Shown one piece after another: positions 1,812 through 53,693 of a stretch of DNA of 64,000 bases (position 1 is its first letter; every line of letters starts with the position of its first letter). The DNA is from Thiobacter sp. AK1 (GTDB lineage Bacteria > Pseudomonadota > Gammaproteobacteria > Burkholderiales > Thiobacteraceae): the NCBI RefSeq assembly GCF_039822265.1, contig NZ_JBAJEX010000003.1:124001-188000 (forward strand), read 5' to 3'. The notes beneath the pieces were generated by a model. The model was not told where the DNA came from. It saw only the letters and a program-made list of their open reading frames with translations, and made no database searches. Position numbers and translations under genes: made by a program.

Positions 1812-1890
1812 TAGCGATGGCTGCAGGAACCCATTCGGCCCGTCTCCAATGCAAGGGGCGGGTAACACTGAAGTTGATCAGGAGGTAACC

Positions 1891-20599: not shown

Positions 20600-21561
20600 C
20601 CGTGGCTCCAGTGGCTTACCTTGTCATGGCTCATCACAAGCCGCAGCAGTTGCTTCGTCTGCTGGAGCGCCTGCGGAGAGACAGCCCCAACGCCTTGATC
20701 GCGCTTCATTTCGATGGCAAGCAGCCGGTACCGGAACCGGCGCGCCTGGCGGCATTGGATGTGGGCCTCATCATCCCTCGCATCACCGTGCAGTGGGGTG
20801 ACTATTCTATGGTCGAGGCCGTGCTCGCGGGATACCGACGACTGCTCACGGAAAATGGCTGGCGTTACGTGCAACTCATCAGCGGCCAGGACTATCCTTT
20901 GCGTCCCTTGGCCCAGAGCGAGCGAGCGCTTCTTAAAGAGGCCCAGGATGCCTATCTCGATGCCTCGCCGGAGCATGAGTATCTTTACCGGTATTGCTAT
21001 CGCTACTGGGTTCTACCGAAGTTTCGCCACGCCTACCTCCTGCCGCCCTGGGTGAAAGCTTTCGCTGGCATTGTGCGCACGCGACTCAACCAATCTCAGC
21101 GTTTCATTCGGCTCGAACGGCGGCCCCGCGGCCTGCCTCAACTGCTCGGTGTCAGGCGTCATCGCTTGCCGTTTAGCGAGTCTTGGCCCTGCTGGTTTGG
21201 CAGCGACTGGTTCGTGCTGTCTCGCCAGGCCGTCGAATATCTCCTGGAAACGCTAGACCAGAGACCCGGTCTGGTCGCCTTGTATCGCACCAGCTTGATC
21301 CCTTCTGAATCACTCTTCGCCACCGTGTTGTGCAACAGCCCCTTGCGCGTGCACTGCGGTGACAACAGACGCTTCATTTTGTGGGCGAGTGACACGGCCG
21401 CTCATCCGGTCACACTCACCATGGAACATTTACCGGCCATGATCGCATCCGGCAAGGATTTCGGCCGCAAGTTCGACGCGGATCGAGATAGCGCCGTGCT
21501 GGACGCATTGGATCGCATACTCGATGCGGGCCACACCTTGGGAGCACATGATGGAGCCTGA
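20596..21561 (+). CDS. Core-2/I-branching family glycosyltransferase (GT14-like)
   Basis: A 321-residue protein of the Branch family, best known from animal beta-1,6-N-acetylglucosaminyltransferases and plant relatives, with scattered bacterial members. Diagnostic stretches are 'VAYLVMAHHKPQQLLRLLERL', 'VQWGDYSMVEA', 'YVQLISGQDYPLRP', 'WFGSDWFVLSRQAVEYL' and 'PSESLFATVL', with 'SGKDFGRKFD' near the C-terminus. It likely introduces a side branch in the glycan; xylosyl transfer is also known in the family. The ATG overlaps the previous stop and the 3' end overlaps the next gene by about a dozen bases. Confidence 0.85.
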   Translation: MTVAPVAYLVMAHHKPQQLLRLLERLRRDSPNALIALHFDGKQPVPEPARLAALDVGLIIPRITVQWGDYSMVEAVLAGYRRLLTENGWRYVQLISGQDYPLRPLAQSERALLKEAQDAYLDASPEHEYLYRYCYRYWVLPKFRHAYLLPPWVKAFAGIVRTRLNQSQRFIRLERRPRGLPQLLGVRRHRLPFSESWPCWFGSDWFVLSRQAVEYLLETLDQRPGLVALYRTSLIPSESLFATVLCNSPLRVHCGDNRRFILWASDTAAHPVTLTMEHLPAMIASGKDFGRKFDADRDSAVLDALDRILDAGHTLGAHDGA

Positions 21562-22483
21562 GCGCCTCCATGCCACAGTGATCGTCTGCACTTACAATCG
21601 CGCCCAGTCTCTCGCGGAAACGTTGCAGTGCCTGCGCAATCAACAAGTCATGGCCGGTCGCACCTGGGAAGTGATCGTCGTGGACAACAACTCCCGCGAC
21701 GACACGCGTGCCGTAGTGGCACGCTTCCAGGCACAGTGGCCGATCCTTCGCTATGTCTTCCATCCAACCCAGGGACTATCCCACGCCCGTAACCGAGGTA
21801 TTGCCGAAGCACGGGGCGAGATTCTTCTGTTCACGGACGATGACGTGCATCCAGAGCCGGACTGGCTGGAACAAGTTTTGAGCGGCATGGCGCAGCATGG
21901 GGCTGATGCATGTGGCGGTTTTATCGCGCCCATGTTCGAAATCGCGCCTCCAGCCTGGTTCACGCCGCGTTTCTATGGCTTCGTCGCGGTGCGCACCGAA
22001 CGCACCGATGACTATCCCATCACCGACCCCAGCCAGGCACCCTTCGGCGCGAACATGGCCTTCTGCCGCTGGGTTTTCGACCGCGTTGGGCTCTTCGACA
22101 CGCGTCGTGGCCGCACCGGCCAGGTGCTGGCCAGCGGTGAGGACGGGGAGATGTTCGAGCGTATCCTCGCCGCGGGGCTCAAGGTAGTGTTTCTCGGCCG
22201 GGCCCGTGTGCATCACAAGGTGGAAACCTTCCGGCTTACGCGGCGCTACCTTCTGCGGTGGCGTTATCAGACCAGCCGTAACATTGCCGAGAGCCGCGAT
22301 GTACCCGGCACGCGACGGCTGCTCAACGTCCCCCTGTATCTTCTCCCCCAAACTTTGCGTGCCGTGGGCCGTGCCGTGGCGGGCAGCGTGTTCGCTACGC
22401 CAGACGAAGCGGTTCATCGACAAATCATCGTCGCCCATTTTCTGGGCACGTTGCACGGCCTGTTGCGGCGTCGTCGGTCATGA
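21548..22483 (+). CDS. Family 2 glycosyltransferase
   Basis: A GT-A transferase of about 311 residues. 'ATVIVCTYNRAQSLAETLQCL' and 'VIVVDNNSRDDT' form the nucleotide-binding half, 'LLFTDDDVHPEPDW' holds the metal-binding triad and 'FGANMAFCRWVF ... GEDGEMFER' the acceptor half. Two adjacent ATG codons (21548, 21551) can serve; the GGGAG at 21539-21543 fits 21551 slightly better. The gene overlaps the branching enzyme upstream and the fusion gene downstream. Its N-terminal half resembles the GT2 half of the next gene, suggesting related origin. Confidence 0.9.
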   Translation: MMEPERLHATVIVCTYNRAQSLAETLQCLRNQQVMAGRTWEVIVVDNNSRDDTRAVVARFQAQWPILRYVFHPTQGLSHARNRGIAEARGEILLFTDDDVHPEPDWLEQVLSGMAQHGADACGGFIAPMFEIAPPAWFTPRFYGFVAVRTERTDDYPITDPSQAPFGANMAFCRWVFDRVGLFDTRRGRTGQVLASGEDGEMFERILAAGLKVVFLGRARVHHKVETFRLTRRYLLRWRYQTSRNIAESRDVPGTRRLLNVPLYLLPQTLRAVGRAVAGSVFATPDEAVHRQIIVAHFLGTLHGLLRRRRS

Positions 22484-25400
22484 GCGATTCCATGCCGGGC
22501 AACGGTGTCAAGCAACTGACCATTCTCATCTGCACCCACAACCGCGCCACACTCTTGGCGCGCGCTCTCGAATCTCTGAACGCGGCCAAGCGGCCTACAG
22601 GATGGCGCGTGGATATTTTGGTCGTGGCCAACGCCTGCACCGATGACACACACGCATTGCTGGAACGGGAGGCCACGCGCAGCATCCAAGATGCCTCCGT
22701 GCTGCCGCTGTCCTGGTTCAGCGAAGCGCAGCCCGGCAAGGTGCACGCCTTGAACGCCGCCATCCCGCGGCTGCGCACCGCAGACCTGGTGGCCTTCGTG
22801 GATGACGATCAGCGGGTCGCGCAGGACTATCTGCTGGCGGCCTGTCGAGCCGCGGACGCATGGCCGCAGTTCAGCCTGTTCTGTGGCCGCATCGTCCCGG
22901 ACTGGGATGGCAGTGAGCCCCCCTGGGTGCATACCGAAGGGCGTTACGCGATTCGGCCGCGCCCCGTGCCCCAGAGTGGCTGGGGCAGCGAGCCTCGGGA
23001 ACTCACACCCGCCGATGGTTTACCCGGTGGGGGCGTTCTCGCGCTGCGCGGCGATGTATTCGATCGCGTGGGTGCGTTTTCGGTCAAGCTGGGTCCTCGT
23101 GGGCACGACCTGGGCGGCAGCGAGGACGCAGATTTTCTGGAGAGGGCGTTCGCCCTGGGTGAACGCTGCCGCTATGTGCCAGACATGCTGCAGTACCACC
23201 ATGTGGACCCCAAGCGGCTAAGCATCGCCTATGTGCTCCGGAAGGCATTCGCCCGCTCCAAAACGGAAATCATTCGCCGCCGGGTGCGCACCGGTATCGC
23301 GCCCTACCATTGGAAGAAGCTATCGATTTACGTTCTGTCAGCTCTGTGGCCTCCGACGCCTGCGCGCATGCGCTACTACCTGGTGCGCCTCGCCGCCACC
23401 CTTGGGGAAATGGCGGGCGCTCATGCTAACCGCTGGCGACCCGCCTGGCGCGACGGAGAAATCCGGCGCACGCGGATGTTTCTTGTGCTGATGATCCTCT
23501 CCGCCGCCTCGGCCCTCGCTGCGGGCTGGCAGGCCGCCCCCCGGGGCATGACGCAGGGTATCCTGGCCGTTTCGCTGGTTGCCGCCGGCGCCGCGCTCGG
23601 ATTGTCCCTGTGGTCGCTGCGCGCCTTCGTGATGGCTGGGCCACGGCTGCCTGCCGAGATCATCCGCCGCTACCGCGTCCAGGCCTTGCTGGCCCAGCTG
23701 CGACTCACGGCCTGGGCCTTCGTGATTGCCAGCCTGTTGGCGATTCCTGGTGTGGCCATGCAGCACGCCGTCGCCCGCTGGCTGGGCCAAGGCGCTTCCT
23801 TGGGCGGACAACTCGTCGCGGCCTTCACCTCTCTGGTGTTACTTACGGGTCTGCAGTTTCTCCGCCAGTTGCTTTGGCTGCCCGCCAATATCGCCGCCTC
23901 GTACCGCTACCGGATCAGCCGCCTCTACCCCATCTGGTTTCGACTCACGCCAACGCGCCTCAAAGGAGCGACCATGCTCGCGGTCGGGGTGCCGACCGCC
24001 GCCGCGCTCGCCATGGCACTAGGCGATGCGCTTGAGGGCCGTCTTACGGCTGCGTTGGCCTGGCTCGCGGGGCTGTCCTTCTATGGCCTTCTGGCCTTAT
24101 GGCTGCGACCTGTGGAGGCGCGCCCGGTCACGGCAGTTCGCCGTGAAGGACCACCCAATCTGCTGCTGCTCGGTTGCGACACGCTGCGCGCGGACCGGCT
24201 GGATGGCAGTCACACGCGCAATGCGGCGCCTTTCTTGCTGGAGCTTTCCCGACGCGGGGTGCGGTTTGATGGGTGCTTCACGCCCTGCGCGCGCACGGCA
24301 CCCTCGCTGCTTGCCCTGCTCACTGGTTGCTGGCCCGCGCGGCTAGGTGTTGGGGACAATTTCGTCCCCGATGAGGCCACCCAGCTGGCCAGCCCTGCGC
24401 TGCCGCACATGTTGCGGCGCTGCGGTTATCGGACGCTTGCCTTGTCGGACTGGTGTGGTGCCGATCTGGGCAAGTTCGAGCTCGGATTCGAGCGGGTGGA
24501 CACGCCTGAGGATCAGTGGAACATTTCATTGTTCATCCGGCAGGGTCCGAAGGACCTGCGGCTATTCCTCGCGCTCTTCACCCACAATGCCTTCGGGCGC
24601 CGCTTCCTGCCAGAAATCTTTTATCTGGCCGGCGTGCCCAACACCGACTTCCTGGGACGGGAAGCGCGCCACCTTCTCAGCGAGTGTGCGGCGGACGAGC
24701 GTCCTTTTCTGCTCAATGTGTTTTTCTCCACCACCCATGGACCGTTCGGCTCCGAGTATCCCTACTACCTGCGGTACGCGCCCCGCGACTACACGGGCGA
24801 GTCCAAGTTCGCCTTGTCCCGCGTGACCGACCCCTGGGAGATCATACGGCGCCAGGCCGAGCCTCGCACCGCCTTCGACTTGGACCAGATCATCGCGCTC
24901 TACGATGGCTGCGTGGCGCGCTTCGATGAGGAGGTGCGGGCCATTCTGGCTCACCTGGAAGCGTGTGGGCTCGCGCACAACACCATCATCGTGCTCTACT
25001 CGGACCACGGCATGGAGTTCTTCGAGCATGGCACCTGGGGGCAGGGCAACTCGGTGGTGAGTGATGCATCCAACCGCATTCCCCTGGTGATCTGCGGGCC
25101 TGGGATCGCACCCAGGGTGGTGACGGAACCCGTGCGCGCCATCGACCTCGCGCCCACCTTGCTCGATCTGTGTGGAATGGCCAAGCGTGAGCAAGCAGCC
25201 ATGGACGGATGCTCCCTTGTGCGCCTCATGCGGGGCCAGGCGGGCGGCGCGCCGCGGGAGGTTCTCACCGAGACGGGCATCTGGCTTTCGCGCCTGCCCG
25301 ACATGCATCCCCAGCACAGACTGTACCCACCCCTGACCGAACTTCTCACCGTGCGCGACTTCGCCACCGGCACCATCTCGGTCAAACCCGAGTGGGAATC

Positions 25401-25650
25401 GGCGGTGCGCCTGGCGAAAGATCGCGCATTGCGTGTTGGTCGCTGGAAGCTGGTCTGCCAGCCCCTGGAAGAAGGGTTGCTGCTGCGACTCTTCGACATG
25501 GAAGCCGATCCGGAATGCCGGTTCGACTGCGCCGCCGAGCATCCGGAGCTTTTGCGTAGCCTGTGGCATCGGTTGACCACGCTCGCCGGTCAAGAGCTGG
25601 CCGGCAATCCCATTCCCAGTTGCATGACGGGGGAGGCCGCGCGCGGATGA
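22480..25650 (+). CDS. Fusion of a GT2 glycosyltransferase, six-helix membrane domain and sulfatase-like domain
   Basis: A 1056-residue protein joining two enzymes. Residues 1-300 are a GT2 domain ('LTILICTHNRATLLARALESL', DDD at 108-110, 'GSEDADFLERA' near 213-223). Six hydrophobic segments follow (about 333-350, 360-382, 408-427, 440-461, 497-514, 522-542), with strongly basic loops after the second and fourth. Residues 558-1030 are an alkaline-phosphatase-superfamily domain of the sulfatase/phosphoethanolamine-transferase type: metal Asp567 in 'LLGCDTLRADRL', nucleophile region 'TAPSLLALLTG' (606-616) and metal pair Asp842-His843 in 'YSDHGMEFFEHG'. Classical sulfatases have CxPSR or SxPSR there; here Thr606 replaces the Cys and Leu610 the Arg, so formylglycine cannot form, and phosphotransferase chemistry with a Thr nucleophile is more likely. 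Its ATG overlaps the previous stop and its TGA the next start. I know no standard function for the fusion. Confidence 0.88.
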   Translation: MSDSMPGNGVKQLTILICTHNRATLLARALESLNAAKRPTGWRVDILVVANACTDDTHALLEREATRSIQDASVLPLSWFSEAQPGKVHALNAAIPRLRTADLVAFVDDDQRVAQDYLLAACRAADAWPQFSLFCGRIVPDWDGSEPPWVHTEGRYAIRPRPVPQSGWGSEPRELTPADGLPGGGVLALRGDVFDRVGAFSVKLGPRGHDLGGSEDADFLERAFALGERCRYVPDMLQYHHVDPKRLSIAYVLRKAFARSKTEIIRRRVRTGIAPYHWKKLSIYVLSALWPPTPARMRYYLVRLAATLGEMAGAHANRWRPAWRDGEIRRTRMFLVLMILSAASALAAGWQAAPRGMTQGILAVSLVAAGAALGLSLWSLRAFVMAGPRLPAEIIRRYRVQALLAQLRLTAWAFVIASLLAIPGVAMQHAVARWLGQGASLGGQLVAAFTSLVLLTGLQFLRQLLWLPANIAASYRYRISRLYPIWFRLTPTRLKGATMLAVGVPTAAALAMALGDALEGRLTAALAWLAGLSFYGLLALWLRPVEARPVTAVRREGPPNLLLLGCDTLRADRLDGSHTRNAAPFLLELSRRGVRFDGCFTPCARTAPSLLALLTGCWPARLGVGDNFVPDEATQLASPALPHMLRRCGYRTLALSDWCGADLGKFELGFERVDTPEDQWNISLFIRQGPKDLRLFLALFTHNAFGRRFLPEIFYLAGVPNTDFLGREARHLLSECAADERPFLLNVFFSTTHGPFGSEYPYYLRYAPRDYTGESKFALSRVTDPWEIIRRQAEPRTAFDLDQIIALYDGCVARFDEEVRAILAHLEACGLAHNTIIVLYSDHGMEFFEHGTWGQGNSVVSDASNRIPLVICGPGIAPRVVTEPVRAIDLAPTLLDLCGMAKREQAAMDGCSLVRLMRGQAGGAPREVLTETGIWLSRLPDMHPQHRLYPPLTELLTVRDFATGTISVKPEWESAVRLAKDRALRVGRWKLVCQPLEEGLLLRLFDMEADPECRFDCAAEHPELLRSLWHRLTTLAGQELAGNPIPSCMTGEAARG

Positions 25651-26579
25651 AGCTGACGGAGAAAACCGCCATTCTCGCCGCGGCTGCCTGGCTGCGCCAC
25701 AGTCCGGTGACTCGTGGCCGCTGGCGCATCATCGCCGCCACATTGCCCCTGCTGCGCCGACAGGGCGATAGGCTAGGGACACGGCTGGTCAAGACGCGCC
25801 ACGGATTTCGCTTCCATGCCGATCTCGGGGATTGGCTCGGTCAATACGTCTATCTCACGGGGGACTATGAGCCCGCGACCGCTCGCGTCATCGCCAGTCT
25901 GCTACGCCCCGGGGACCACTTCGCCGATGTCGGCGCCAATGCCGGCTTCTTCACGCTGCTGGCCGCGCAAGCAGTGGGACTCGAAGGACGCGTGTTCAGC
26001 TTCGAGCCTCTGCCCGCGCTGCGCGACCGGCTAGAAGCCGACCTGAAGCTCAACGGCTATCGGAACGTGACGCTATACGATTTCGCGCTGTCGGACCGCG
26101 AGGACACCGTGACCTTCCATGAGGGCCCCGCGGGCCACAAGGGCGTTTCCAGTCTGCGCGCGATCGCGGATGCCGCGGCGCGATTCGAGGTTAAGACCCG
26201 GCCGATGGACGCATTGATCGAAGAAGTCACGCCGCTGCGGCTGGTCAAGATCGACGTGGAAGGCGCGGAACACCGCGTCGTGCGCGGCATGGCGCGGATC
26301 ATCGAAACGGACCGTCTTTATCTACTGATGGAAATCACGGACGGGTTTCTGCGTGCGCTGGGAAGCAATGCCGTCGAACTGGCCTGCGACGTGGTCGCCC
26401 GCGGCTACTACATGTATGCCATCACCGAGAAGGGCTTGCGCCCAATGAAGCCGAAGCAAGCCGCGCAGGAGAATCAGTACAACGCCCTATTCGCGCCCGA
26501 AACGATCGAGCCCGGCTGGATCGGTCTCGATGCCGTCCGTTACCGCGCGCGGCGCGCGAAACGGTCCTTTAGCGCGTGA
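25647..26579 (+). CDS. FkbM family methyltransferase
   Basis: A 310-residue SAM-dependent methyltransferase. The SAM-binding motif is 'FADVGANAGFFTLLAA' (92-107), followed by 'VFSFEPLPALRDRLEADL', and the FkbM signature 'LVKIDVEGAEHRVVRGM' is at 199-215. Members O-methylate sugars or small molecules; within this operon a methyl decoration of a glycan residue is the natural inference. The N-terminal ~50 residues are basic and may bind the membrane surface or a partner. It starts within the stop of the fusion gene (ATGA) and its own stop overlaps the GTG of the next gene. Confidence 0.9.
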   Translation: MKLTEKTAILAAAAWLRHSPVTRGRWRIIAATLPLLRRQGDRLGTRLVKTRHGFRFHADLGDWLGQYVYLTGDYEPATARVIASLLRPGDHFADVGANAGFFTLLAAQAVGLEGRVFSFEPLPALRDRLEADLKLNGYRNVTLYDFALSDREDTVTFHEGPAGHKGVSSLRAIADAAARFEVKTRPMDALIEEVTPLRLVKIDVEGAEHRVVRGMARIIETDRLYLLMEITDGFLRALGSNAVELACDVVARGYYMYAITEKGLRPMKPKQAAQENQYNALFAPETIEPGWIGLDAVRYRARRAKRSFSA

Positions 26580-27715: not shown

Positions 27716-28498
27716 TCAGGGTTCGTCGGGACAGAAACGACAATAGGGTTTGTCTGGGTTCGCGCCTGCCGCGTTTGGCTGCGGCGGCGCGGCGCGCAAA
27801 GCCGGGGAGGTGCCTGAGTCGGCAGGTTTTGGATCGCCATTAGAAGGGGATGGCCCGTTGGGTTGCGCATCAGCGGGCGCACTCGCCTTGCCCTGGGCCA
27901 CCACCGGCTCCGGGTAGGGCAGCTTGCCGCCGAGTTTTTCGTAGCGGTTTTGCAAGTCGCGACTGCCGGGGTTCCAGCGCAGACCTTCGGTCACGACCTT
28001 GAGCGCGTCTTGGGGAAGCTTTCTTTCCGCAAGTAAATCCGCCCACGCGATGTAAGCCCTGACGAGACGGGGATCATGGCGAACCGCTGCCTGGTAATCT
28101 TGCATCGCTTCCCCATCCCGCCCCCAAAGGGCATAGGCCGTTGCCCTGCCCAAATAGCTCGCGCCAGCCAGGGTGCTACTGGGCACGAGATGCTCCACCA
28201 TGTAGGTGAATTCATTGACCGCCTCGTGGAGGAAGGATTTCGCGCCCGGAGAGCCGACGGCACGATAATAGCGGTTGATGTGGTTCAAACCAGCACAATA
28301 GTGGTGGGCGTTTTTGAACTGTTCCCCAAGCAGGGCGAAGCCACGATCCAGATCTGCTTTTCCACCGCGCAGCTTCCAGGTGCAAAAAGGTGGCAGGGTT
28401 CTGAGTTCCTCATCCGTTGGATAGCTGCCCGCGGAAGCGACGGGCATGCCTTCAACCAGCACCACGAGGATGGCTACGGCTGCCAGAATCGTTTTCAT
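27716..28498 (-). CDS. Secreted TPR-like protein of glycan clusters
   Basis: A 260-residue exported protein: signal peptide 1-23, then a segment with 'LPPFCTWKLRG' and 'NAHHYCAGLNHINRYYRA', a Cys/His pattern I associate with small TPR proteins next to exopolysaccharide genes. Helical repeats at about 100-195 ('ASYLGRATAYALWGRDGEAMQDYQAAVRHDPRLVRAYIAWADLL') are two or three TPRs. The C-terminal 60 residues are Pro/Ala/Gly-rich and end in 'YCRFCPDEP', where a CxxC could bind metal or form a disulfide. It is the last gene of a five-gene minus-strand operon and overlaps the GT4 gene by 4 bases. A scaffold role in glycan assembly is inferred. Confidence 0.75.
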   Translation of the reverse strand: MKTILAAVAILVVLVEGMPVASAGSYPTDEELRTLPPFCTWKLRGGKADLDRGFALLGEQFKNAHHYCAGLNHINRYYRAVGSPGAKSFLHEAVNEFTYMVEHLVPSSTLAGASYLGRATAYALWGRDGEAMQDYQAAVRHDPRLVRAYIAWADLLAERKLPQDALKVVTEGLRWNPGSRDLQNRYEKLGGKLPYPEPVVAQGKASAPADAQPNGPSPSNGDPKPADSGTSPALRAAPPQPNAAGANPDKPYCRFCPDEP

Positions 28499-30772: not shown

Positions 30773-31824
30773 GTCACGCCTAGTCTCGTCCAACAGTGTG
30801 CAAGCCTGGGCGGCCTGACCCAGTCGGCGTCCCTATCGAGGAGTTTTGCGCCCAGTTCCTCGCTCGCGGCGAAACGTAGCTTCGCGTAACGCGCCAAGGC
30901 CATTTCCAGGGCGCACCGCAGCGCCTCCCGAGCCTGCGCACCCCTTTGCCCCAGGTAGTTGAAGCGATGGGTTTCCACCAAGCAGGGCCGGCCCGCGCGT
31001 ACTTGGCGGTCGAGTCCGCTCACCAGCCGCTGGGGGTCATGGCCGCGGGCGGGCTCGAAATAGACGTCACGCACCAGGTAGCGCACACCGGTGGCAGAGG
31101 GCGCGCCGTTGTAGAGCCACCGGCGATCTGTGAGTAAACGACCTTGAGCATCACGGCCCGTGTGGCGAGCGCCAGGCGTCACCACCCACTCGACGCCGGC
31201 ACGCCGCCAAGCGGCTTCCACGTCGTCGTTCCACACGAAGGTATTGGGTACGGCCACGGTCGGTACGCGCCCGAAGCATCGTCGCAAGCACGCCGCCTCT
31301 TCGGCAATGGCTTGTTCGATGAGCGCTCCGGCAATGGCTTGGGTGGGCAAGACCGACCCATCCACCCAGCGACTTTGCAGCGCATCCGGCAAGGCTTCCG
31401 TGGGTGCCTCCTGCTCGAGCCACCGCCTGACCGCCGGCTGCGCGCGGCTCGCAAGCAGGGCGGGCGGCCAGTAGTGCTCCAGCCCGTGCCACTGGATGGC
31501 AAACACGCCCGCCGCAATACCGCTTTCTAAGGCCTCCCGCACCGCGGCCTGGGATGGGTGATCGAGGGTCAGCCGGACGTAGCGCGCCGTCTTGCGCCAG
31601 ACTTCGCGATCGATGATGCCGCTCACCAGCCCAATGGTCATCACGGCGCTGCGCCCGGTAGCATCGCGAATACTTCTTAGCACTTGTATGAGAGCGTAGA
31701 GCGCCCGCGCTTGCTCAGCCACCCGGCCGGGCGCATCCGCCCCCCAGTCGTCGCTCTCCAGGACCAGGACGGGATGGGTGAGGGCCGGCTCGCGCCAGAC
31801 GGAGAGCAGGCGAGCTGCGTTCAC
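30769..31824 (-). CDS. Polysaccharide deacetylase-like protein
   Basis: A 351-residue protein. The GTG at 31824 overlaps the sulfotransferase stop (GTGA); the much longer upstream frame is shadow sequence. The opening 'HPVLVLESDDWGAD' with two adjacent Asp resembles the metal/catalytic start of deacetylase-like (beta/alpha)7 barrels, and later 'FAIQWHGLEHYWPP' and 'VETHRFNYLG' hold His residues that could complete a metal site. Canonical NodB motifs are otherwise weak, so it is a divergent member or a relative with another activity. It has no signal peptide. Its neighbours, a sulfotransferase and a GT2, suggest modification of a glycan before sulfation. Confidence 0.7.
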   Translation of the reverse strand: MNAARLLSVWREPALTHPVLVLESDDWGADAPGRVAEQARALYALIQVLRSIRDATGRSAVMTIGLVSGIIDREVWRKTARYVRLTLDHPSQAAVREALESGIAAGVFAIQWHGLEHYWPPALLASRAQPAVRRWLEQEAPTEALPDALQSRWVDGSVLPTQAIAGALIEQAIAEEAACLRRCFGRVPTVAVPNTFVWNDDVEAAWRRAGVEWVVTPGARHTGRDAQGRLLTDRRWLYNGAPSATGVRYLVRDVYFEPARGHDPQRLVSGLDRQVRAGRPCLVETHRFNYLGQRGAQAREALRCALEMALARYAKLRFAASEELGAKLLDRDADWVRPPRLAHCWTRLGVT

Positions 31825-32744
31825 GGCTCGTATCCCATGCGGCGTGCCACCGGTTCGACCATGGGCAGGATACGCTCGATGCGCGCCCGGTTGCAGCCAT
31901 CTTTCCATTTGTCCAGGCGAATGGCGGAAAAGGCGTTGTAAGGCGTATCCAGCACACGCGCGCAATGCTTTTCCAGGGCGGGCGTGAAACTTAGCTCCGC
32001 TTCGCTGAATAGACGCCTGAATTCGTTCACCGGATCGCGCACCAGATCCTCGTAAAACACCTCGGACCACTGGTTGGGCGAGAGAAGGGCCCTGGCTTCG
32101 AGGATGGCCTGGTTGATGGCCACATACTGAAAGGCGCACACCTCCTCGATCGAGGCGCGGCTATAAGCACGCCAGCCCTCGGCGAGAAAGAAGCACCAGC
32201 GAGTATAGCGGCCGCCATCGATGGCCACCTGCTCCGGCAGCTCCGCCGACCAGGTGGCGAACTCCTCCGGCTTGCCCCACCCTTCGATCAGACTGTTCAC
32301 GTTGTCGCCGGGGCTACGCTTGACGTAAACGAAATGCGCATCCGGAAAAAGCGCATGCAGATAGGGCACGCACAGGCCGTTCTGGTTGTTCTTATCCACC
32401 CAGCGCGAGCGGCCGGTCCAGGCGTAGAAATAGCGGGTGACGTAATCCCGGTCTGCCGGCGAGGCATGACGCGCGTCGAGGGCATGCGTGTCCCAGTTGC
32501 GGGCGCGCGGATGGTGCAGCGCCATCCAGAAATCGTGGGTCTCCCGCTGCAAGCTGCCCAGTTCAAGGGACTCGGAGAAGGTTTTGTACACCAGGGTGGT
32601 GCCAGCGCGGCTGCAACCGAGGATGATTACGGGACGGCTGGCTGCCGGCCGCAGCAGATCCCAGATCACACCGCGCAGGACACGCCTGCCAGCCTGCGCG
32701 TGGTGGCGTAGGGTTTTATCGACTTTCACCCAGAATTCACTCAA
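31821..32744 (-). CDS. PAPS-dependent sulfotransferase
   Basis: A 307-residue sulfotransferase-fold protein. The 5'-phosphosulfate loop is 'GCSRAGTT' (43-50) and the 3'-phosphate-binding motif 'YVKRSPGDNVNSL' lies at 140-152, both expected for transfer of sulfate from PAPS to a carbohydrate hydroxyl or amine. The start is a TTG at 32744 supported by AGGAG seven bases upstream; a GTG at 32729 is the alternative. It heads a five-gene minus-strand operon and is divergent from the asparagine-synthase-like gene (95 bases apart). The only PAPS-making kinase seen is at 2767-4434. Sulfation of the exopolysaccharide is the likely role. Confidence 0.88.
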   Translation of the reverse strand: MSEFWVKVDKTLRHHAQAGRRVLRGVIWDLLRPAASRPVIILGCSRAGTTLVYKTFSESLELGSLQRETHDFWMALHHPRARNWDTHALDARHASPADRDYVTRYFYAWTGRSRWVDKNNQNGLCVPYLHALFPDAHFVYVKRSPGDNVNSLIEGWGKPEEFATWSAELPEQVAIDGGRYTRWCFFLAEGWRAYSRASIEEVCAFQYVAINQAILEARALLSPNQWSEVFYEDLVRDPVNEFRRLFSEAELSFTPALEKHCARVLDTPYNAFSAIRLDKWKDGCNRARIERILPMVEPVARRMGYEP

Positions 32745-32839: not shown

Positions 32840-34648
32840 ATGCTTTGCGGCTGGCTGGGTATTCGCACCGATGATGCGGCCGACGTGCTCCATGGGATGG
32901 GGCAAGGCGCATCGCCCATCGTGCTGCAGCCGGACGCGGGTCTTGCCGTCCATTCGCCCTTCGGCCGCGCTTCGGGCCATTTCCAGGCGGGCCTGGCCGT
33001 CGCGCTTCACGGCCGGGTGCGATTCGCCGATGACGCGCTGGCGGCGATCGCAGCCGAGCACGGTCCGGCGGCAGCGGTGGCTCAAGGCTTTCGCCGTCAC
33101 GGCCTGGATGTGCTTAACGCCTTGCGCGGTGGCTTCGCCCTGGCCCTGATGGAACCCGCCACACGCACCCTGCTTTTGGCCCTCGACCGCATGGGCATCG
33201 AAAAACTGGGCTTTGCCGCGTCGCCCCAAGGCGTGGTGTTCGGTCGCAATCTCGACAGTGTGACGCAGCATCCGGCGGTGGGCGCCCGGCTGTCGGCCCA
33301 GGGGCTGTTCGATTATCTCCACGCGCACATGGTGCCCTCGCCCGACAGCATCTACCGTGGCGTGGAAAAGCTCCTGCCGGCGCAGTATCTGCTCTGGCGC
33401 GATGGCCGGAGCGAGCGCGGCTTCTACTGGGAAGCCATCTGGGAAGACGCAGAGACGAATGCTTTCGACGCGCGCGCTAGCCAACTGCATTCCTTGCTGG
33501 AGGAGGCTGTGCGCGCCGCGCTGGAGAAAGATCGCGCCGGCGCCTTTCTCTCGGGTGGACTGGATAGCTCCACCGTTTGCGGCATGCTGGCGCGGGTAGC
33601 AGGCCATGCCGACAGTTTTTCCATCGGCTTTGCCGCCGAGGGCTACGATGAGATGGGCTACGCCCGCATCGCGGTACGCCATTTCGGGCTCACGCCCCAC
33701 GAATACTACGTCACACCCGCCGACGTGGCCGCAGCCATTCCTCTCATCGCTCAGGCCTACGACGAACCCTTTGGCAACGCCTCGGCCGTGCCCACCTACT
33801 ACTGTGCCCTGCGCGCGCGGGAGGCGGGCCTGCCGCTGCTGCTGGCGGGCGACGGCGGTGATGAAATTTTTGGTGGCAATGCCCGTTACGCGAAGCAGAT
33901 GATGTTCGAGCACTACCAGAGACTGCCATCCAGCTTGCGCAGCGCAGTGATCGAACCTCTCGCCCGTCGGCTGCCCGATGGCCGCGCAGTTTTGCGCAAG
34001 GCCAAACGCTATGTGGAACAGGCGCGCATTCCCTTGCCCGATCGCCTGGAGACCTACAACTTCCTGCACCGGGATCCCCTGCCAGAAATTTTCGATCGTG
34101 CATTTCTCGAGGCCGTGGACACGGAACGACCGCTCGCCATCCAGCGCGAGGCGTATTTCCGCACACGGGCGCGCCATCCCATTAACCGCATGCTGCACCT
34201 GGACTGGAAACAGACCCTGGCGGACAACGACCTGCGCAAGGTGGAGCGCATGGCGGAACTCGCCGGTATCGAGGTGCGTTACCCCATGCTGGACGAGCGC
34301 TTGGTGGATTTCGCCAGCGCGCTGCCGCCCTCCTTCAAGGTCCGCGGAGCAAGCCTGCGTTGGTTCTACAAAGAAGCGCTGCAGGATTTTCTGCCGCGCG
34401 AGATCCTCACCAAGCGCAAGCACGGCTTCGGGCTGCCCTTCGGCGTCTGGATGAAGGCAGATGCAACTCTCAATGCGCTCGCCCTGGACAGCCTGCACGC
34501 CTTCCGCGGCCGCGGCATTTTGCGCAAGGCCTATCTCGACCGCCTGATCGCCGCCCACGAAGCCGAGCATAGCAGCTACTACGGCGTCATGATCTGGGTG
34601 GTCATGATGCTTGAACAGTGGCTGGCCGCCCATTCCCTTTCCCTCTGA
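32840..34648 (+). CDS. Asparagine synthase-like amidotransferase with degenerate glutaminase domain
   Basis: A 602-residue class II amidotransferase relative. The synthetase half is intact, with the ATP-pyrophosphatase motif 'FLSGGLDSS' (236-244), 'LLLAGDGGDEIFGGN' and 'EVRYPMLDERLVDFA'. The N-terminal half is abnormal: it begins Met-Leu-Cys-Gly, so the nucleophilic Cys is residue 3 and cannot be the free N-terminal residue after Met removal, and the usual RGPD and FNGEIYN motifs are missing. The start is fixed by GGGAGG just upstream. It may use free ammonia or ammonia from a partner, or carry out another acyl-adenylate reaction on the glycan. Its last 47 bases overlap the convergent O-antigen-ligase-like gene. 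Confidence 0.88.
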   Translation: MLCGWLGIRTDDAADVLHGMGQGASPIVLQPDAGLAVHSPFGRASGHFQAGLAVALHGRVRFADDALAAIAAEHGPAAAVAQGFRRHGLDVLNALRGGFALALMEPATRTLLLALDRMGIEKLGFAASPQGVVFGRNLDSVTQHPAVGARLSAQGLFDYLHAHMVPSPDSIYRGVEKLLPAQYLLWRDGRSERGFYWEAIWEDAETNAFDARASQLHSLLEEAVRAALEKDRAGAFLSGGLDSSTVCGMLARVAGHADSFSIGFAAEGYDEMGYARIAVRHFGLTPHEYYVTPADVAAAIPLIAQAYDEPFGNASAVPTYYCALRAREAGLPLLLAGDGGDEIFGGNARYAKQMMFEHYQRLPSSLRSAVIEPLARRLPDGRAVLRKAKRYVEQARIPLPDRLETYNFLHRDPLPEIFDRAFLEAVDTERPLAIQREAYFRTRARHPINRMLHLDWKQTLADNDLRKVERMAELAGIEVRYPMLDERLVDFASALPPSFKVRGASLRWFYKEALQDFLPREILTKRKHGFGLPFGVWMKADATLNALALDSLHAFRGRGILRKAYLDRLIAAHEAEHSSYYGVMIWVVMMLEQWLAAHSLSL

Positions 34649-35903
34649 CTGCTGCTACCGCCTGCGTGGCTCTTTCCTCCTGGAGCAGGACCACCTTGGC
34701 GAGGATGACCAGCATGAGCACGTGGTAGTAGAGGTCGAAGTAGCTCAACCCCAGAAAAGCGCCGGCGGCGTAGTAGGCCATCATGGTCACCTGGCCCATG
34801 GCCGCCAGGTCTGCCGCCCATTTCTTGTCCGGATCCTTTCTCACCCGGCGCAGCACCCAGGAACCCGTGCGCCAGGTGAGAACCCCCAATAACAGCCACA
34901 GGGCCAGAGCGGGAAAACCGTGCTCGCCCAATTGTTCGAAATAGACGGAGTGCACGTCGTGTACCCGATCCGGCTCCGGTGCGTAAACCTGGAAAGTCGG
35001 TTCCTGGAACATCTCGAAGCCGCCGCCCGTGATGCGTGCCTTGGCCACGTTGTAAGCGGTCCACCAGGCGTTGATGCGGCCCAGCGCGGAGGCGTCTTCT
35101 TCGTAACTTTCGATGGTCTGCATGCGCTCATACCACTGGGCCGGCATGATGAGATAAATCAGACCCGCAGCCATCACCACCAGGATGGCCGTAACAAACT
35201 TGTTGCGACTCTTCCACCAGAACATGGTGGCCATCACCGCCGCTCCCACCAAGGCGCCCCGCGACTGGCTGCCGATGGCGGCGAGCGCGGTGAGCACGAT
35301 TGCGGCCGTCAGCCCCAGCCGGATGAGGCGGTGCTTTTCCGTGAGCTGGAGATAGCGCATGAGAGGAATGGTCATCAGCAGGGCCAGCGCGATCTCATTG
35401 TTGCCACCGATGAAGGATCCCATTGGCCCTTGCACGCGATACACGCCGCCATGGACGATGGTGAAGATGCCACCCTTGATGCCGTAGAAGCCGAGGGAGA
35501 GCACGATCACCCACACCAATAGACGTAGCTTGTGCCGGTCGTTGATCACTAGGGGCGTGATGAAGATCATGGCCATGATCTTCATCACCTTTTCCCATTG
35601 GCTCCAAGCGAGTTCGGGATAGAAGGCGAAGAAAGTGGTGAAGGTCCACCATAGCGCGAGCAGCAGAAGCACCGTCATCTCCCGCGTCCAGGGCATGCGT
35701 TTCGGTTCCTTGGAAAACAGCACGCCCACCAGCGTGGCGAGCGCGGCGAGATAAGCCCAGGGAAAGGAATAGGCGAAGCCATAGGCCAGCCGATGGGGGT
35801 TCATGTAACTGATCCAGGAATACAGATACAGTCCCCAATGGGGTCGCGCCAGTGCAAAAGGCAGGACGCCGAAGAACACCACTGCCAGCAGCAAATCCCT
35901 CAT
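34602..35903 (-). CDS. Exosortase A-associated O-antigen ligase-like protein
   Basis: A 433-residue polytopic membrane protein with 10-12 helices, last gene of the XrtA operon. The N-terminal 'GLYLYSWISYMNPHRLAYGFAYSFPWAY', the central 'GPMGSFIGGNNEIALALLMTIPLMRYLQ' and the periplasmic loop 'HDVHSVYFEQLGEHGFPALALWLLLG' match the putative O-glycosylation ligase family that co-occurs with exosortase A (TIGR03097 type, Wzy/WaaL superfamily). Its proposed role is glycan polymerisation or attachment of the finished glycan to an acceptor such as processed PEP-CTERM proteins. It overlaps the CoA-ligase-like gene by 4 bases. Confidence 0.92.
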   Translation of the reverse strand: MRDLLLAVVFFGVLPFALARPHWGLYLYSWISYMNPHRLAYGFAYSFPWAYLAALATLVGVLFSKEPKRMPWTREMTVLLLLALWWTFTTFFAFYPELAWSQWEKVMKIMAMIFITPLVINDRHKLRLLVWVIVLSLGFYGIKGGIFTIVHGGVYRVQGPMGSFIGGNNEIALALLMTIPLMRYLQLTEKHRLIRLGLTAAIVLTALAAIGSQSRGALVGAAVMATMFWWKSRNKFVTAILVVMAAGLIYLIMPAQWYERMQTIESYEEDASALGRINAWWTAYNVAKARITGGGFEMFQEPTFQVYAPEPDRVHDVHSVYFEQLGEHGFPALALWLLLGVLTWRTGSWVLRRVRKDPDKKWAADLAAMGQVTMMAYYAAGAFLGLSYFDLYYHVLMLVILAKVVLLQEERATQAVAAVRGKGNGRPATVQAS

Positions 35904-37252
35904 GGCGCCACCTTGCTGACGATATAACGGTATTTGCCGGAAGCCTCGCGGGGAATCTCGGCCACCCGCTCGATTTCGATCTTCACACCACTGCCAAGGC
36001 GACGGGCAAGGCCGGTGCGGATCGCGGCCAGTGACGTTTCCTGGAATTCGGGGCCAGTCACCAAAAGCACGCGGGTGAATTCCGCGCTTTCCTGCACGAT
36101 CTTGAACTGGGCGACACCCGGCACGTCACGCACCACGTAGATGAGCGCTAGGCCATGCATCACCGTGCCGTCCTGCGCCACGACGAAGTCCGTGTTGCGG
36201 CCCTGGATCTCCTTGAGCAGCGGTAGCCCGCGACCACAGGCACAGGATCGATCGTCCAGCACCCCCACGTCGCCCGTGCGATAGCGGATGAACGGGAAAT
36301 CGCCAGTGGCGAGATGGGTGACCACGATCTCGCCCGCTTCCCCCGGCGGTAGCACGCGGCCGGCCTCATCCACGATTTCCACGAGGATGTCTTCCGCCGT
36401 AATGTGCATGCCGCCGGCTGGACACTCATGGGCGATGAAACCCGCATCGCGGCCCCCGTAGCCATTGGCCACCGGGCAGCCGAAGGTGCGGGATATTGTC
36501 TCCCGCTGGTGATCGTAGAGCCGCTCCGAGGTGACGAAGGCGACCCGGATGCCCAGATCGTGCATCACCACCCCTCGTTTCTCGGCGTGCTGCGCGATCA
36601 GCGCAAGGGAGGATGGGTAACCGAACAACATGTGCGGCCGCATGCGGCGGATCGTTGCCAGATAGCCATCCAACCGGGCTTGCGACATCTCGAAGGCGGG
36701 AAGCAAATGGCTGCGCAGCACGCGGTCGCGCCAGGCCCGCAAACGGTCCTGGCGGGAAAGTTCGATGGGCGAACCCCAGACCACGATTTCCGGATCACCG
36801 ATGTCCACACCCCACCAGCGGGTGGCGCGCCATTTCGCCGCCACGTCGTGGGAAACACGCTGTTTGCCGATGAAAAAGATCAAGGGCTCGCCGCTGGAGC
36901 CCCCCGTGTTGGATCGCGCCAGACCCTGGGCATCGTCCGCTTTCAACGCTTCCAGATTGGCGCGAATGTCGGCCTTGGTGAGAAACGGCAGGCTGCCAAG
37001 ATCGGCAACACGCTCGACTCGCCCGGGATCGAACCCGACGCGCGCGAACAACGCCCGATAATAGGGCACGTGCACCTGGGCGCGGGCAAGAAGGCGTCGC
37101 AGGCGAAGGAGCTGGATGGCCTCGATCTTTTCCCGTGGCCACCATTGGCTTTCCTCCAAGCGCCGGCGCAGCTTGACCGTGTCGTGCCCCTTGAGCCGCT
37201 CATGCAGAGGAAACAGCACGTGAGCGACCAGCCAAGTGTAAGCGCCACTCAT
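35900..37252 (-). CDS. PaaK-like adenylate-forming ligase of the glycan locus
   Basis: A 450-residue member of the phenylacetate-CoA ligase-like (CapK) group. 'SNTGGSSGEPLIFFIG' is the phosphate-binding loop, 'NGYGGRDAGFIAHEC' the adenylate-binding region with four nearby Cys that may bind metal, and 'IRYRTGDVGVL' the hinge. CapK-type proteins in capsule and exopolysaccharide loci activate a carboxylic acid, perhaps for acyl decoration of sugars. The ATG at 37252 overlaps the upstream stop (ATGA); the longer frame before it is shadow sequence. Substrate is unknown. Confidence 0.88.
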   Translation of the reverse strand: MSGAYTWLVAHVLFPLHERLKGHDTVKLRRRLEESQWWPREKIEAIQLLRLRRLLARAQVHVPYYRALFARVGFDPGRVERVADLGSLPFLTKADIRANLEALKADDAQGLARSNTGGSSGEPLIFFIGKQRVSHDVAAKWRATRWWGVDIGDPEIVVWGSPIELSRQDRLRAWRDRVLRSHLLPAFEMSQARLDGYLATIRRMRPHMLFGYPSSLALIAQHAEKRGVVMHDLGIRVAFVTSERLYDHQRETISRTFGCPVANGYGGRDAGFIAHECPAGGMHITAEDILVEIVDEAGRVLPPGEAGEIVVTHLATGDFPFIRYRTGDVGVLDDRSCACGRGLPLLKEIQGRNTDFVVAQDGTVMHGLALIYVVRDVPGVAQFKIVQESAEFTRVLLVTGPEFQETSLAAIRTGLARRLGSGVKIEIERVAEIPREASGKYRYIVSKVAP

Positions 37253-38475
37253 ATCGCTGCCAGCTCCCGGAAACGGGTGACCAGGGTTGCGATGCGGGTA
37301 TCCCAGGAATTCTCGGCCGCGTAGGCGCGGATGTGCTCGCGATCCCACTGCCGGCGCAGCGACTTGGCGAGTGCCTCGCATAGCGCGCTTTCATCACCGA
37401 AGGGCACCACATAGCCGAGGTTCTCGTCGCGCACCACTTCGCGGTTGCCGCCCACGTCGGTGGTTACCACGGGCAGTCCGCAGGCCATGGCTTCCAGGAA
37501 GACGTTGGCCCAGCCTTCGTTGCGGGTAGCCAGCACGAACACGTCGGCCGCGGACAGGGGCCAGCGCAGTTGTTGCGGCGGGACCACGCCCAAAAACCGC
37601 ACGTGGCGCGCAAGCCCCAGCTGCGCCACCTGCTGTTCGAGCTGGGCGCGCATGTCTCCTTCCGGCGAGGCGCCGCCGACGATGAGATAAAGGAGGTCAG
37701 GAAACTCGCGCAGCAAGTGCGGCAGCAGCGCGATCACGCGATGAAAACCCTTGCGTTCCACCAGCCCGCCCACGGAGACCAGTATCTTGGCTTCAGGAGG
37801 AAGAGACAGCCGCGCCCTTGCCTCCGCCCGGTCTTCCGGGTGGAAGACGTGGGTATCGACACCATTGCCCACGACCTGGATTTTGCTCGGATCCGCGCCC
37901 AGGCTCACCACATGGCGCGCGAGGGCCTCCGCCACGGCGAACACGCGGGCCGCCCGCTCAAGCGCCACCAGCATGCGACGGCGCTTGCCCGGGTGGAGGG
38001 CATGGGGCACTTCCGTGCCGCGCAGGGTGATGGTGACCGGCACGTGAAGCCAGTGCCCGAGCCAGGTGGCAGCGTAGCCGTCGGGGTAGGCGAAATGGGC
38101 GTCGATCACATCAAACCCGAATTCCCTCTTAAGCCGCCTGAGCAGGGGCAGACAAAAGACCGCCATGAGCAAGCCGTCCCAGCTACGGAACAGGCCGGGC
38201 ACCGAGAGGAAGCGGGGATGCCAGACGACGATGCCTTGTTGCACTTCCTTGAGCGGCGGCATGGGACGATAGCCCGCGCGGAACAAACGGATGAGGCCCT
38301 GGAGAGGAAACCAGGGCACGGGTGCCACCACCAGCAGGGGCAGGTGGCGCGCGACACGGAACATGCGCTCGCGGATGAACAGCCCTGCCGCGGGCTGGAC
38401 GCTGCTCGGAAACAAAGAGGAAAAAACCACCAGGCGCGGGCTTTCAGCCACAGTGCCGTCTCCGTGCATCTTCAT
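37249..38475 (-). CDS. Family 4 glycosyltransferase (XrtA operon)
   Basis: A GT-B enzyme of about 408 residues. The acceptor domain starts at 'LVVFSSLFPSSVQPAAGLFIRERMF' and the donor domain has 'ILVSVGGLVERKGFHRVIALL' with EX7E in 'ATRNEGWANVFLEAMACGLPVVTT'. Two near starts (38475, 38469) are possible; both overlap the upstream gene. It resembles the WcaC-like transferases common in XrtA loci. Donor and acceptor are not readable. Confidence 0.9.
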   Translation of the reverse strand: MKMHGDGTVAESPRLVVFSSLFPSSVQPAAGLFIRERMFRVARHLPLLVVAPVPWFPLQGLIRLFRAGYRPMPPLKEVQQGIVVWHPRFLSVPGLFRSWDGLLMAVFCLPLLRRLKREFGFDVIDAHFAYPDGYAATWLGHWLHVPVTITLRGTEVPHALHPGKRRRMLVALERAARVFAVAEALARHVVSLGADPSKIQVVGNGVDTHVFHPEDRAEARARLSLPPEAKILVSVGGLVERKGFHRVIALLPHLLREFPDLLYLIVGGASPEGDMRAQLEQQVAQLGLARHVRFLGVVPPQQLRWPLSAADVFVLATRNEGWANVFLEAMACGLPVVTTDVGGNREVVRDENLGYVVPFGDESALCEALAKSLRRQWDREHIRAYAAENSWDTRIATLVTRFRELAAI

Positions 38476-39658
38476 AGACCTGGTGGTAGCGGGCCACGCT
38501 CGCCTTCCAGTTGCGTTCCGTTTCCACGAAGCGGCGGGCGCGCGCACGCATCTCCTCCCAGCGGTGACGGTTGGCGAAAGCCTGCAGCACGGCCCGCGCC
38601 AGGGCCGCGGTGTCGTCCGCGGGAAACAGCCAGCCGGTTTCGCCGTGGCAGATCAGTTCCCGGTGGCCACCCACGTCGGAGGCGACGAACAGGTGGCCTT
38701 GGGCCATGGCCTCCAGGGGCTTGAGGGGCGTGACCAGTTCGGTAAGACGCATGCGATGGCGTGCATAGACCAACAGATCGATCAGATCGTAGTAGCGGTT
38801 GACCTCGGCATGGGGCACGCGACCGGTGAAAACCACCTTGTCGGCGATGCCCAGCGCCTCCGCCTGGCGCTGCAGCAGGCCCTCCTGCGGCCCGCCGCCC
38901 ACCAGCAGCACGCGCACGTCGGGCGCCTGCTGCAGAATCTTCGGCAAGGCGGCGAGCAATAGATCGAGCCCCTCGTAGGCATAGAAGGAGCCGATGAAGC
39001 CCAGCACCCGCGCGCCAGTCAGCCCGAACCGCGCCTTGAGCGTCTCATCCGGCGGATTGCCGAGGGGAAATTTCTCGATGTCCACCCCGTTGGGTATCAC
39101 GGTCACCTTCTCCGGGGCGATGCCGCGCGCGACAATGTCGGAACGCAGCCCCTCGCAGATGCAGGTGACGGCATCCGCGCGCCTGAAGGCGTAAGTATCC
39201 AGGTGCTTGGACAGACGATAGCGCAGACTGCCCTCGGTGGTGGTGCCGTGGTCCACCGCGGCGTCCTCCCAGAAGGCGCGCACCTCGTACACCACCGGAA
39301 TGCCGCGCCGATGAGCGGCGCGCAGGGCTGGAATGGCGTTCAACTGCGGTGAGTGGGCGTGCACGATGTCTGGGCGGACGGTGTCGATGACTTCGGCAAG
39401 ACGCCGCTTCAGGGCCAGCATGTCGGCCAGCTGGTTGACCGCCGGCAGCCGGCTCATCAGACCAGTAGGCGGCGCGGTACGGTAGAAATGCAGGCCGTCC
39501 ACCTCTTCCTCCGCCACTTCGCATTTAACCTGGCGCGGGCCGGTGAGGTGGAAGGTTTCCCAGCCCAGCGCCCGCTGCTCGCGCAGGATGGCCGCACTCC
39601 GAAACGTGTAACCCGAGTGCAGGGGCAGGGAATGGTCGAAGACGTGGAGGATGCGCAT
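38444..39658 (-). CDS. Exosortase A-associated family 4 glycosyltransferase (TIGR04063 type)
   Basis: A 404-residue GT-B enzyme. The opening 'MRILHVFDHSLPLHSGYTFR' is the recognisable signature of the PEP-CTERM/exosortase A-associated transferase family (TIGR04063 type). The donor half contains 'LGFIGSFYAYEGLDLLLAAL' and the ELVTPLKPLEAMA segment with the EX7E-type Glu residues. It starts at the base where the amidotransferase gene ends, so the two are coupled, and overlaps the next GT4 gene by about 30 bases. It is one of the marker genes that identify the locus. Confidence 0.93.
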   Translation of the reverse strand: MRILHVFDHSLPLHSGYTFRSAAILREQRALGWETFHLTGPRQVKCEVAEEEVDGLHFYRTAPPTGLMSRLPAVNQLADMLALKRRLAEVIDTVRPDIVHAHSPQLNAIPALRAAHRRGIPVVYEVRAFWEDAAVDHGTTTEGSLRYRLSKHLDTYAFRRADAVTCICEGLRSDIVARGIAPEKVTVIPNGVDIEKFPLGNPPDETLKARFGLTGARVLGFIGSFYAYEGLDLLLAALPKILQQAPDVRVLLVGGGPQEGLLQRQAEALGIADKVVFTGRVPHAEVNRYYDLIDLLVYARHRMRLTELVTPLKPLEAMAQGHLFVASDVGGHRELICHGETGWLFPADDTAALARAVLQAFANRHRWEEMRARARRFVETERNWKASVARYHQVYEDARRRHCG

Positions 39659-41607: not shown

Positions 41608-41624
41608 GGTTGAAGGTTTTCGTC

Positions 41625-45534: not shown

Positions 45535-45572
45535 GCGGCCTTCGTTCCGGATCCGTCTGGCGTGGCAGAGCC

Positions 45573-49579: not shown

Positions 49580-49592
49580 GGCGGCGTCCTGC

Positions 49593-51119: not shown

Positions 51120-51155
51120 CTTGGTCCTGATCCTCCCCGTGTCTTCCGTCACCGT

Positions 51156-52094: not shown

Positions 52095-52112
52095 GGTTTG
52101 CTCCCCGCTAGG

Positions 52113-53651: not shown

Positions 53652-53693
53652 GGCGCACCCCTCGGTACCGGCGCGTAGCCGGGTCAGGCCTGG

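Follow-up and report, generated by a model that had tools for sequence, protein, structure and literature searches.

The closest described systems to the protein considered here belong to the alkaline phosphatase superfamily and comprise the formylglycine sulfatases of family S1, represented by the structures 6g5z/7pth (choline sulfatase), 6hr5 (S1_25) and 6hhm (S1_7), and the threonine-type membrane enzymes LtaS and EptA/MCR. In LtaS and EptA, the metal is coordinated by an acidic residue, a Thr and an Asp-His pair, and the proteins have five helices with the catalytic domain outside. The ethanolamine phosphate transferases of glycosylphosphatidylinositol (GPI) synthesis (PIG-N, PIG-O and PIG-G) are also of the Thr type and decorate a lipid-linked glycan, in eukaryotes and on the luminal side; their likeness to the present protein serves as a working analogy only. 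This protein is encoded in a 64,000-nucleotide stretch of the Thiobacter sp. AK1 genome (contig NZ_JBAJEX010000003.1, positions 124,001 to 188,000; the whole stretch is hereafter the window) by an open reading frame (ORF) at 22480-25650 (+). It joins a family 2 glycosyltransferase (GT2) domain, six membrane helices and a sulfatase-fold domain with Thr at the formylglycine position. The parts (GT2, sulfatase fold, Thr-type superfamily enzyme) are known, while their arrangement is unusual and so, by prediction, is the side of the membrane on which they lie.

The fusion protein resembles the S1 sulfatases in its whole fold and in the positions of Asp567, His753, Asp842 and His843. It differs from them in having Thr for Cys, Leu for Arg, Asp for one Lys and Gln for another, in lacking a His, and in being joined to membrane helices and a GT2 domain, with a predicted cytosolic location. 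With LtaS and EptA/MCR, as these are generally known, it shares the Thr nucleophile, the Asp-His metal pair and the presence of membrane helices, and the LtaS chain 4uoo was matched at an E-value of 1.5e-7. Unlike these enzymes, it has six helices and a predicted cytosolic domain, and its score against the LtaS model NF053595 (28.9 bits) lies far below the cut-off of 970. Pfam holds a model of the EptA-type N-terminal membrane domain, which is absent from the fusion protein's Pfam matches at E-values up to 0.01. Among the literature matches listed, no paper was devoted to a glycosyltransferase-sulfatase fusion.

Architecture and family of the fusion protein

The gene starts with ATG and encodes 1056 residues, in whose translation a DDD motif (108-110), Asp567, TAPSL (606-610) and Asp842-His843 can be read. 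Pfam assigns residues 14-150 to Glycos_transf_2 (PF00535; E 2.6e-9, 37.7 bits against a cut-off of 23.3) and residues 559-899 to Sulfatase (PF00884; E 4.8e-34), while the type I phosphodiesterase model PF01663 matches only part of the latter domain (residues 561-634, E 4.5e-9). Six hydrophobic regions were found by the Kyte-Doolittle scale between residues 328 and 545, with a seventh (821-839) located inside the sulfatase fold. An AlphaFold2 model built from 59 sequences (mean predicted local distance difference test, pLDDT, 85.9; predicted template modelling score, pTM, 0.79) has six long helices at residues 325-542. Structural alignment of its C-terminal part with 999 chains gives sulfatase-fold chains with Z values of 28.9-34.4 among the 50 matches shown, the top one of these being 6hr5 (Z 34.4, 358 aligned residues, 3.1 Å); EptA and LtaS do not appear in these 50, from which no exclusion follows. 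The top Foldseek match of the Thr domain is a choline sulfatase. The architecture and motif positions proposed in the initial annotation, namely GT2, six helices, sulfatase fold, DDD, TAPSL, Asp567 and Asp842-His843, are all borne out. The fusion gene overlaps both neighbours by ATGA, with a GT2 gene before it and an FkbM methyltransferase gene after it, the start of the latter having been picked from the overlap itself (the Pfam run covered 25650-26576). ATGA overlaps are frequent between genes sharing one operon.

A sample of 88 proteins of the family, counting the window's own copy, was assembled from the best 80 of 130 relatives found in a contig scan and from 8 loci taken from 60 genomes. 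Near-copies inflate this count (L005 and L031, for instance, are identical over the domain), and thinning at 90% identity reduced it to 65 (49 fused to the usual GT, 4 to another GT, 9 split and 3 cut). Two alignments were used, A1 holding 58 of 60 prepared rows and A2 56 of 75. Fused proteins account for 73 of the 88 members, 68 with the usual GT2 in the same frame and five with another GT2; 11 are split and four are cut by contig ends (L006, L007, L078 and L089) and were placed in neither class, the last 20 members having been sorted by hand. The architecture is kept in 58 relatives that align over nearly their whole length with 43-54% identity to the window protein, a conservation far beyond chance. 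Named hosts include Thiobacillus, Thauera, Aromatoleum, Sulfuriferula, Candidatus Nitrotoga, Marichromatium and Seongchinamella, and many records are metagenome bins. Since most members are fused, among them named isolates of Aromatoleum, Thauera, Thiobacillus and Sulfuriferula, an assembly error can be ruled out, and the view that the fusion is real, for which consistently split homologues would have told the other way, holds at 73 fused against 11 split members. In the split loci, a matching GT gene is present in the fetched flank of 9/11, the flank being short for L008 and L088.

The GT2 head carries the residues expected of its family, with D, DxD-type and ED residues present besides the PF00535 score over the cut-off. 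Among the 68 members bearing the usual GT, Asp55, DDD108-110, Glu215-Asp216, Gln238 and His240 are each conserved in 67 or 68. In L073, L075, L079, L082 and L083, by contrast with these, the head is another kind of GT2 domain (mutual identity 67-89%), which away from the joint aligns with the usual GT2 over short stretches only, at about a third identity or less. Directly before helix 1, 13-19 residues nonetheless retain 53-71% identity to the usual joint in four of the five, L079 being the exception. On a tree of the shared part (LG+G4, 80 of the 88 rows) the other-GT members are scattered, requiring at least four changes; this tree carries a long-branch warning and was used solely to show that scatter. 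Tree and change count were made without L005, L006, L007, L022, L059, L064, L068 and L089, and the truncated L078 was entered as other-GT in the tree run, not in the change count. The membrane-sulfatase module is thus the constant part of the family, and the GT head is exchangeable. The occurrence of an unrelated GT2 near the same joint in these five members resembles capsule-type switching.

Active site and predicted membrane side

Sequence alignment places Thr606 on the nucleophile position of the solved and canonical sulfatases, and this residue is Thr in 88/88 members (65/65 after thinning). Arg605, Asp657, Trp658, Lys665, His753, Asp842, His843, Trp853, Gln855 and Asn857 are likewise invariant (88/88), and Asp567, Arg570 and Asp572 are conserved in all 87 members with a residue at the position. 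The Arg of the C-x-P-S-R motif is replaced by Leu in 86 members (Leu610 in the window protein), by Ile in one and by Met in one. Relative to four canonical sulfatases taken from related genomes, the family shows the substitutions Cys to Thr, Arg to Leu, the Lys of G-K-x-H to Asp657 and the distal Lys to Gln855, the His of G-K-x-H having no counterpart in the family. A phmmer alignment to choline sulfatase agrees at Thr606, Leu610 and Gln855, with a one-residue uncertainty around Asp657-Trp658. Cysteines 599, 603, 659, 811 and 1013 are conserved in 80-87 of the 88 members and were not used as a sign of membrane side, since conservation without geometry is silent on disulfides.

Judged from these alignments, the family has kept a metal site whose nucleophile is a hydroxyl group and has lost the sulfate cradle. 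The domain has the S1 fold with the metal Asp and the Asp-His pair, while the S1 nucleophile motif, the sulfate-binding Lys-x-His and the distal Lys are absent, and the choline-sulfatase model TIGR03417 scores 119.7 bits against a cut-off of 433.45. With Cys replaced by Thr, and the Arg, Lys, His and Lys of the cradle replaced or missing, an ordinary sulfatase is ruled out, in agreement with the initial annotation, which had held that the protein is not a formylglycine sulfatase. With the nucleophile and the metal ligands invariant, so high a level of conservation favours a catalytic domain over a dead one.

With regard to topology, six hydrophobic segments were counted in 59 of the 68 fused members with the usual GT, five in eight and four in one. 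The loops predicted to face the cytosol carry an excess of Lys and Arg in 70/70 fused-type and 11/11 split proteins, in a count made without 7 of the 88 members (L006, L007, L064, L067, L068, L078 and L089). In the alignment, the first helix is missing from all 11 split proteins. Counted alone, these give five segments in 7/11, six in L084, four in L090 and L092 and three in L085, where the match begins early and so curtails the region; for several split ORFs the actual start is uncertain. The charge bias in 81/81 proteins and the absence of helix 1 where the GT is separate make it probable that both domains face the cytosol, as had been predicted at the outset, a location unusual for this superfamily. 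Provided that the orientation of helices 2-6 is unchanged, fused and split proteins alike would have a cytosolic sulfatase domain, and helix 1 would serve to bring the GT to the same side.

A second AlphaFold2 model, of the membrane domain alone, again has six long helices (mean pLDDT 90.2). Foldseek gave it zero PDB matches at an E-value of 0.001 or better; the first row, the sulfate permease CysZ (E 0.51, TM-score 0.26), was treated as noise, and the VIA-align matches, at Z 7.2 or less, are within chance for helical bundles. Pfam returned nothing for the membrane domain of the window protein at E-values up to 1, and across 57 members its matches were weak and scattered, with one to three members per family. 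A new fold is not claimed for this domain.

The XrtA exopolysaccharide locus

The fusion gene belongs to an XrtA/PEP-CTERM exopolysaccharide locus, the features of which are collected in the table. Besides XrtA itself, eleven companion models score over their cut-offs (TIGR03097, 03108, 04063, 03088, 03019, 03006, 03015, 03016, 03018, 03007 and 03027). This setting, together with the co-occurrence of the gene with a sulfotransferase and adenosine 5'-phosphosulfate (APS) kinase, had been missed by the initial annotation.

Features of the fusion gene and of the surrounding locus, in window coordinates
Feature	Position	Strand	Evidence or occurrence
Fusion protein of 1056 aa (GT2, six helices, sulfatase fold of Thr type)	22480..25650	+	
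GT2 domain, about residues 1-320	22480..23439	+	Pfam, residue conservation
Six-helix membrane domain, residues 325-542	23452..24105	+	hydrophobicity, AlphaFold2
Alkaline-phosphatase-superfamily (sulfatase fold) domain, residues 557-1040	24148..25599	+	Pfam, fold matches
Thr606 codon, at the formylglycine Cys/Ser position	24295..24297	+	alignment
Upstream GT2 gene, ATGA overlap with fusion start	21524..22483	+	Pfam
FkbM-type methyltransferase gene, ATGA overlap with fusion stop	25647..26579	+	Pfam
Tetratricopeptide repeat (TPR) protein	27716..28498	-	homologue (E 1e-8 or better) in 18/18 carriers
Sulfotransfer_3 family protein, E 1.1e-20, P-loop GCSRAGTT	31821..32744	-	homologue (E 1e-20 or better) in 15/18 carriers
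PEP_O_lig_1, exosortase A-associated ligase	34602..35903	-	TIGR03097, 529 bits, cut-off 188
XrtA exosortase with EpsI domain	42782..44968	-	TIGR03109, 361.5 bits, cut-off 208
Rest of the XrtA exopolysaccharide locus (amidotransferase, GTs, FemAB, deacetylase, WecB, ATPase and others)	37249..54497	-	
Further genes of the same rest (outer-membrane protein, tyrosine kinase, chain length, export)	37249..54497	-	
ORF of 555 aa holding the only strong APS kinase domain of the genome, E 2.7e-59	2767..4434	-	

Co-occurrence was surveyed in 399 genomes of the order, with cut-offs that vary by search: E 1e-60 for the family, 1e-20 for the sulfotransferase, 1e-8 for the TPR protein and 1e-30 for APS kinase. 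The fusion family was found in 18 genomes at E 1e-60 or better, and XrtA over its cut-off in 97, among them 18/18 carriers. XrtA and the fusion gene lie on one contig, 17-27 kb apart, in 11 carriers, and on different contigs of a draft assembly in the other seven. Homologues of the Sulfotransfer_3 protein are present in 17 genomes, namely 15/18 carriers against 2/79 other XrtA genomes, and APS kinase in 18/18 against 42/79. The TPR gene, used as a control, was found in 18/18 carriers against 11/79. Since this neighbour is as strongly tied to the fusion gene, the sulfotransferase tie is partly one of block inheritance. When the comparison is confined to the 29 TPR-bearing XrtA genomes, the sulfotransferase still separates carriers from the others (15/18 against 0/11, Fisher p 1.1e-5) and APS kinase does so weakly (18/18 against 8/11, p 0.045), in tests that treat genomes as independent, which they are not. 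Across the fetched loci, sulfotransferase-like ORFs are found in 65/80 (phmmer E 1e-8).

Additional genes deserve mention. A second sulfotransferase-like family occurs 0.3-2.9 kb before the fusion gene in 25/88 loci (for example L049:7094-8083). The N-terminal part of the ORF with the APS kinase domain was read by eye as ATP sulfurylase from familiar motifs, and the protein is presumably a synthase of 3'-phosphoadenosine 5'-phosphosulfate (PAPS); together with the Sulfotransfer_3 gene, which is of the PAPS type, this probable ATP sulfurylase-APS kinase suggests a sulfated exopolysaccharide. A PEP-CTERM-like protein at 1795-2703 (+), with the C-terminus VPEPASLALMGLGLAGLAALRRRKPA, appears by eye to be a likely XrtA substrate. 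Beside the locus, at 59689-63652 (+), genes for a DSP/PAP2 phosphatase, a CDP-alcohol phosphatidyltransferase, a CdsA-like cytidylyltransferase and an acyltransferase form a second phospholipid-type pathway. The genome's only other PF00884 match (150.6 bits, in a 664-aa frame) lies outside the window at C3:102881-103705 (+).

Similar clusters have been described in other bacteria. In the floc and biofilm exopolysaccharide cluster of Thauera aminoaromatica MZ1T, mz1t_3253 is listed as 'sulfatase [wbbL]' (PMC4784049), and the same label is given to RGS1_10427 of Rubrivivax gelatinosus, with Tmz1t_3253 as its counterpart (PMC3684757). As far as the figure legend and table in which these two genes appear indicate, their clusters resemble the window locus in having deacetylase, GT2 and asparagine synthase genes. 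The double label of sulfatase and wbbL suggests the same fusion, and the two genes probably belong to the fusion family, as judged from labels and cluster type rather than from sequences. T. aminoaromatica S2 itself carries the fusion (L070), and the deacetylase group is not in its short fetched flank.

Proposed function and competing explanations

The favoured reading, held tentatively and at somewhat less than even chances, is that the protein is a two-headed glycan-assembly enzyme of the inner membrane that works on the cytosolic face, with a Thr head transferring a charged group, most likely a phosphodiester. The GT2 head would add a sugar to a lipid-linked repeat unit on that face. In the other head, a divalent metal bound by Asp567, Asp842 and His843 would activate Thr606, which would accept a charged group from a donor and hand it to the growing glycan before flipping; the catalysis, the number of metals, the donor, the acceptor and the order of steps are here all putative. 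The group would most likely be a phosphodiester such as phosphoethanolamine or phosphoglycerol, drawn from an inner-leaflet phospholipid; the reasons for favouring it are the Thr nucleophile and the loss of the sulfate cradle. The suggestion of the initial annotation that a sugar and a phospho-group may be added to the same lipid-linked intermediate is likewise putative.

Several observations weigh against this proposal. The nearest relatives by sequence and fold are sulfatases, not LtaS or EptA, and the ties to a sulfotransferase and to APS kinase speak for sulfate no less than for phosphate. No phospho-donor pathway was seen among the locus genes scanned, which form part of the window ORFs. 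At position 622 the family has His in 85/88 members, but the window protein has Leu. As to topology, 9/68 fused members give five or four segments, 4/11 split ones do not give five, and the N-terminal tail of L008, one of the split proteins, is basic, which sits less well with an outside N-terminus. Moreover, in the table of the R. gelatinosus transposon screen RGS1_10427 stands without the asterisk of a transposon hit, so that this screen offers no evidence of need (PMC3684757).

Among the alternatives, a sulfuryl transfer is unlikely but live, on account of the XrtA locus and the co-occurrence of sulfotransferase and APS kinase. On this account, the Thr domain and the PAPS sulfotransferase of the locus would act together on the cytosolic side, the site of PAPS synthesis; the domain would carry a sulfuryl group as a sulfo-Thr intermediate and either place it on a sugar or shift it from one sugar to another. 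The counts given above for the sulfotransferase (among all XrtA genomes, among TPR-bearing ones and in the fetched loci) and for APS kinase speak for it, as do the sulfatases among the nearest solved relatives, with choline sulfatase at the top in Foldseek. The canonical sulfate-binding residues have, however, been substituted or lost, and the residues now in their place are conserved in turn; a PAPS sulfotransferase does not need a second enzyme; and the genomic association speaks at most for a shared product, not for a shared chemistry. It is quite improbable that the Thr domain is no longer catalytic and instead serves the GT as a scaffold or reader by binding a sugar that carries sulfate or phosphate. 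The loss of the sulfate cradle, the swapping of the GT while the Thr module stays and the presence of YejM/PbgA, which is mainly regulatory, among the fold matches (Z 29.2 and 29.1) would agree with such a role, but a nucleophile and metal ligands that are invariant wherever the residue is present are unexpected in a dead site.

Slightly less credit is given to a cytosolic phosphodiesterase or pyrophosphatase, similar to nucleotide pyrophosphatases, that would hydrolyse a by-product or edit a lipid-linked intermediate. Nucleotide pyrophosphatase-like enzymes have their Thr in a T-x-P-N-[HL] context, the pattern T-x-P-S/N-L/H being one that resembles them, and the PF01663 match points the same way; that model covers only part of the domain, however, and the whole domain matches sulfatases much better. 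Least probable is a C-terminal domain that is periplasmic, as in LtaS and EptA, with one predicted helix not being a real span. Although the known Thr-type membrane relatives carry the domain outside and 8/68 fused members give five hydrophobic segments, the positive-inside bias in 81/81 proteins, the absence of helix 1 where the GT is separate and the six long helices in both AlphaFold2 models stand against it.

A long shot is that the family represents the first recognised alkaline-phosphatase-superfamily transferase on the cytosolic leaflet, a sulfatase fold remodelled around Thr and coupled to exchangeable GT heads, so that one membrane enzyme could both add sugars to an exopolysaccharide repeat and tag them with a charged group. 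The tagged, probably sulfated glycan may then also be where XrtA attaches PEP-CTERM proteins, in a bacterial parallel to GPI-type anchoring. We know of no account of what XrtA-processed proteins become attached to, and the fusion gene offers a handle on the glycan in this question. The abstract of one paper describes cyanobacteria as unique among bacteria in producing sulfated extracellular polysaccharides (PMC8205485). The tie of one XrtA locus type to a PAPS sulfotransferase predicts sulfated slime in floc- and biofilm-forming environmental proteobacteria. The swapping of GT domains at a near-constant joint constitutes a modular route to new glycan structures, and a cytosolic Thr-type domain of the sulfatase fold, if true, would widen the range of where and how this superfamily works.

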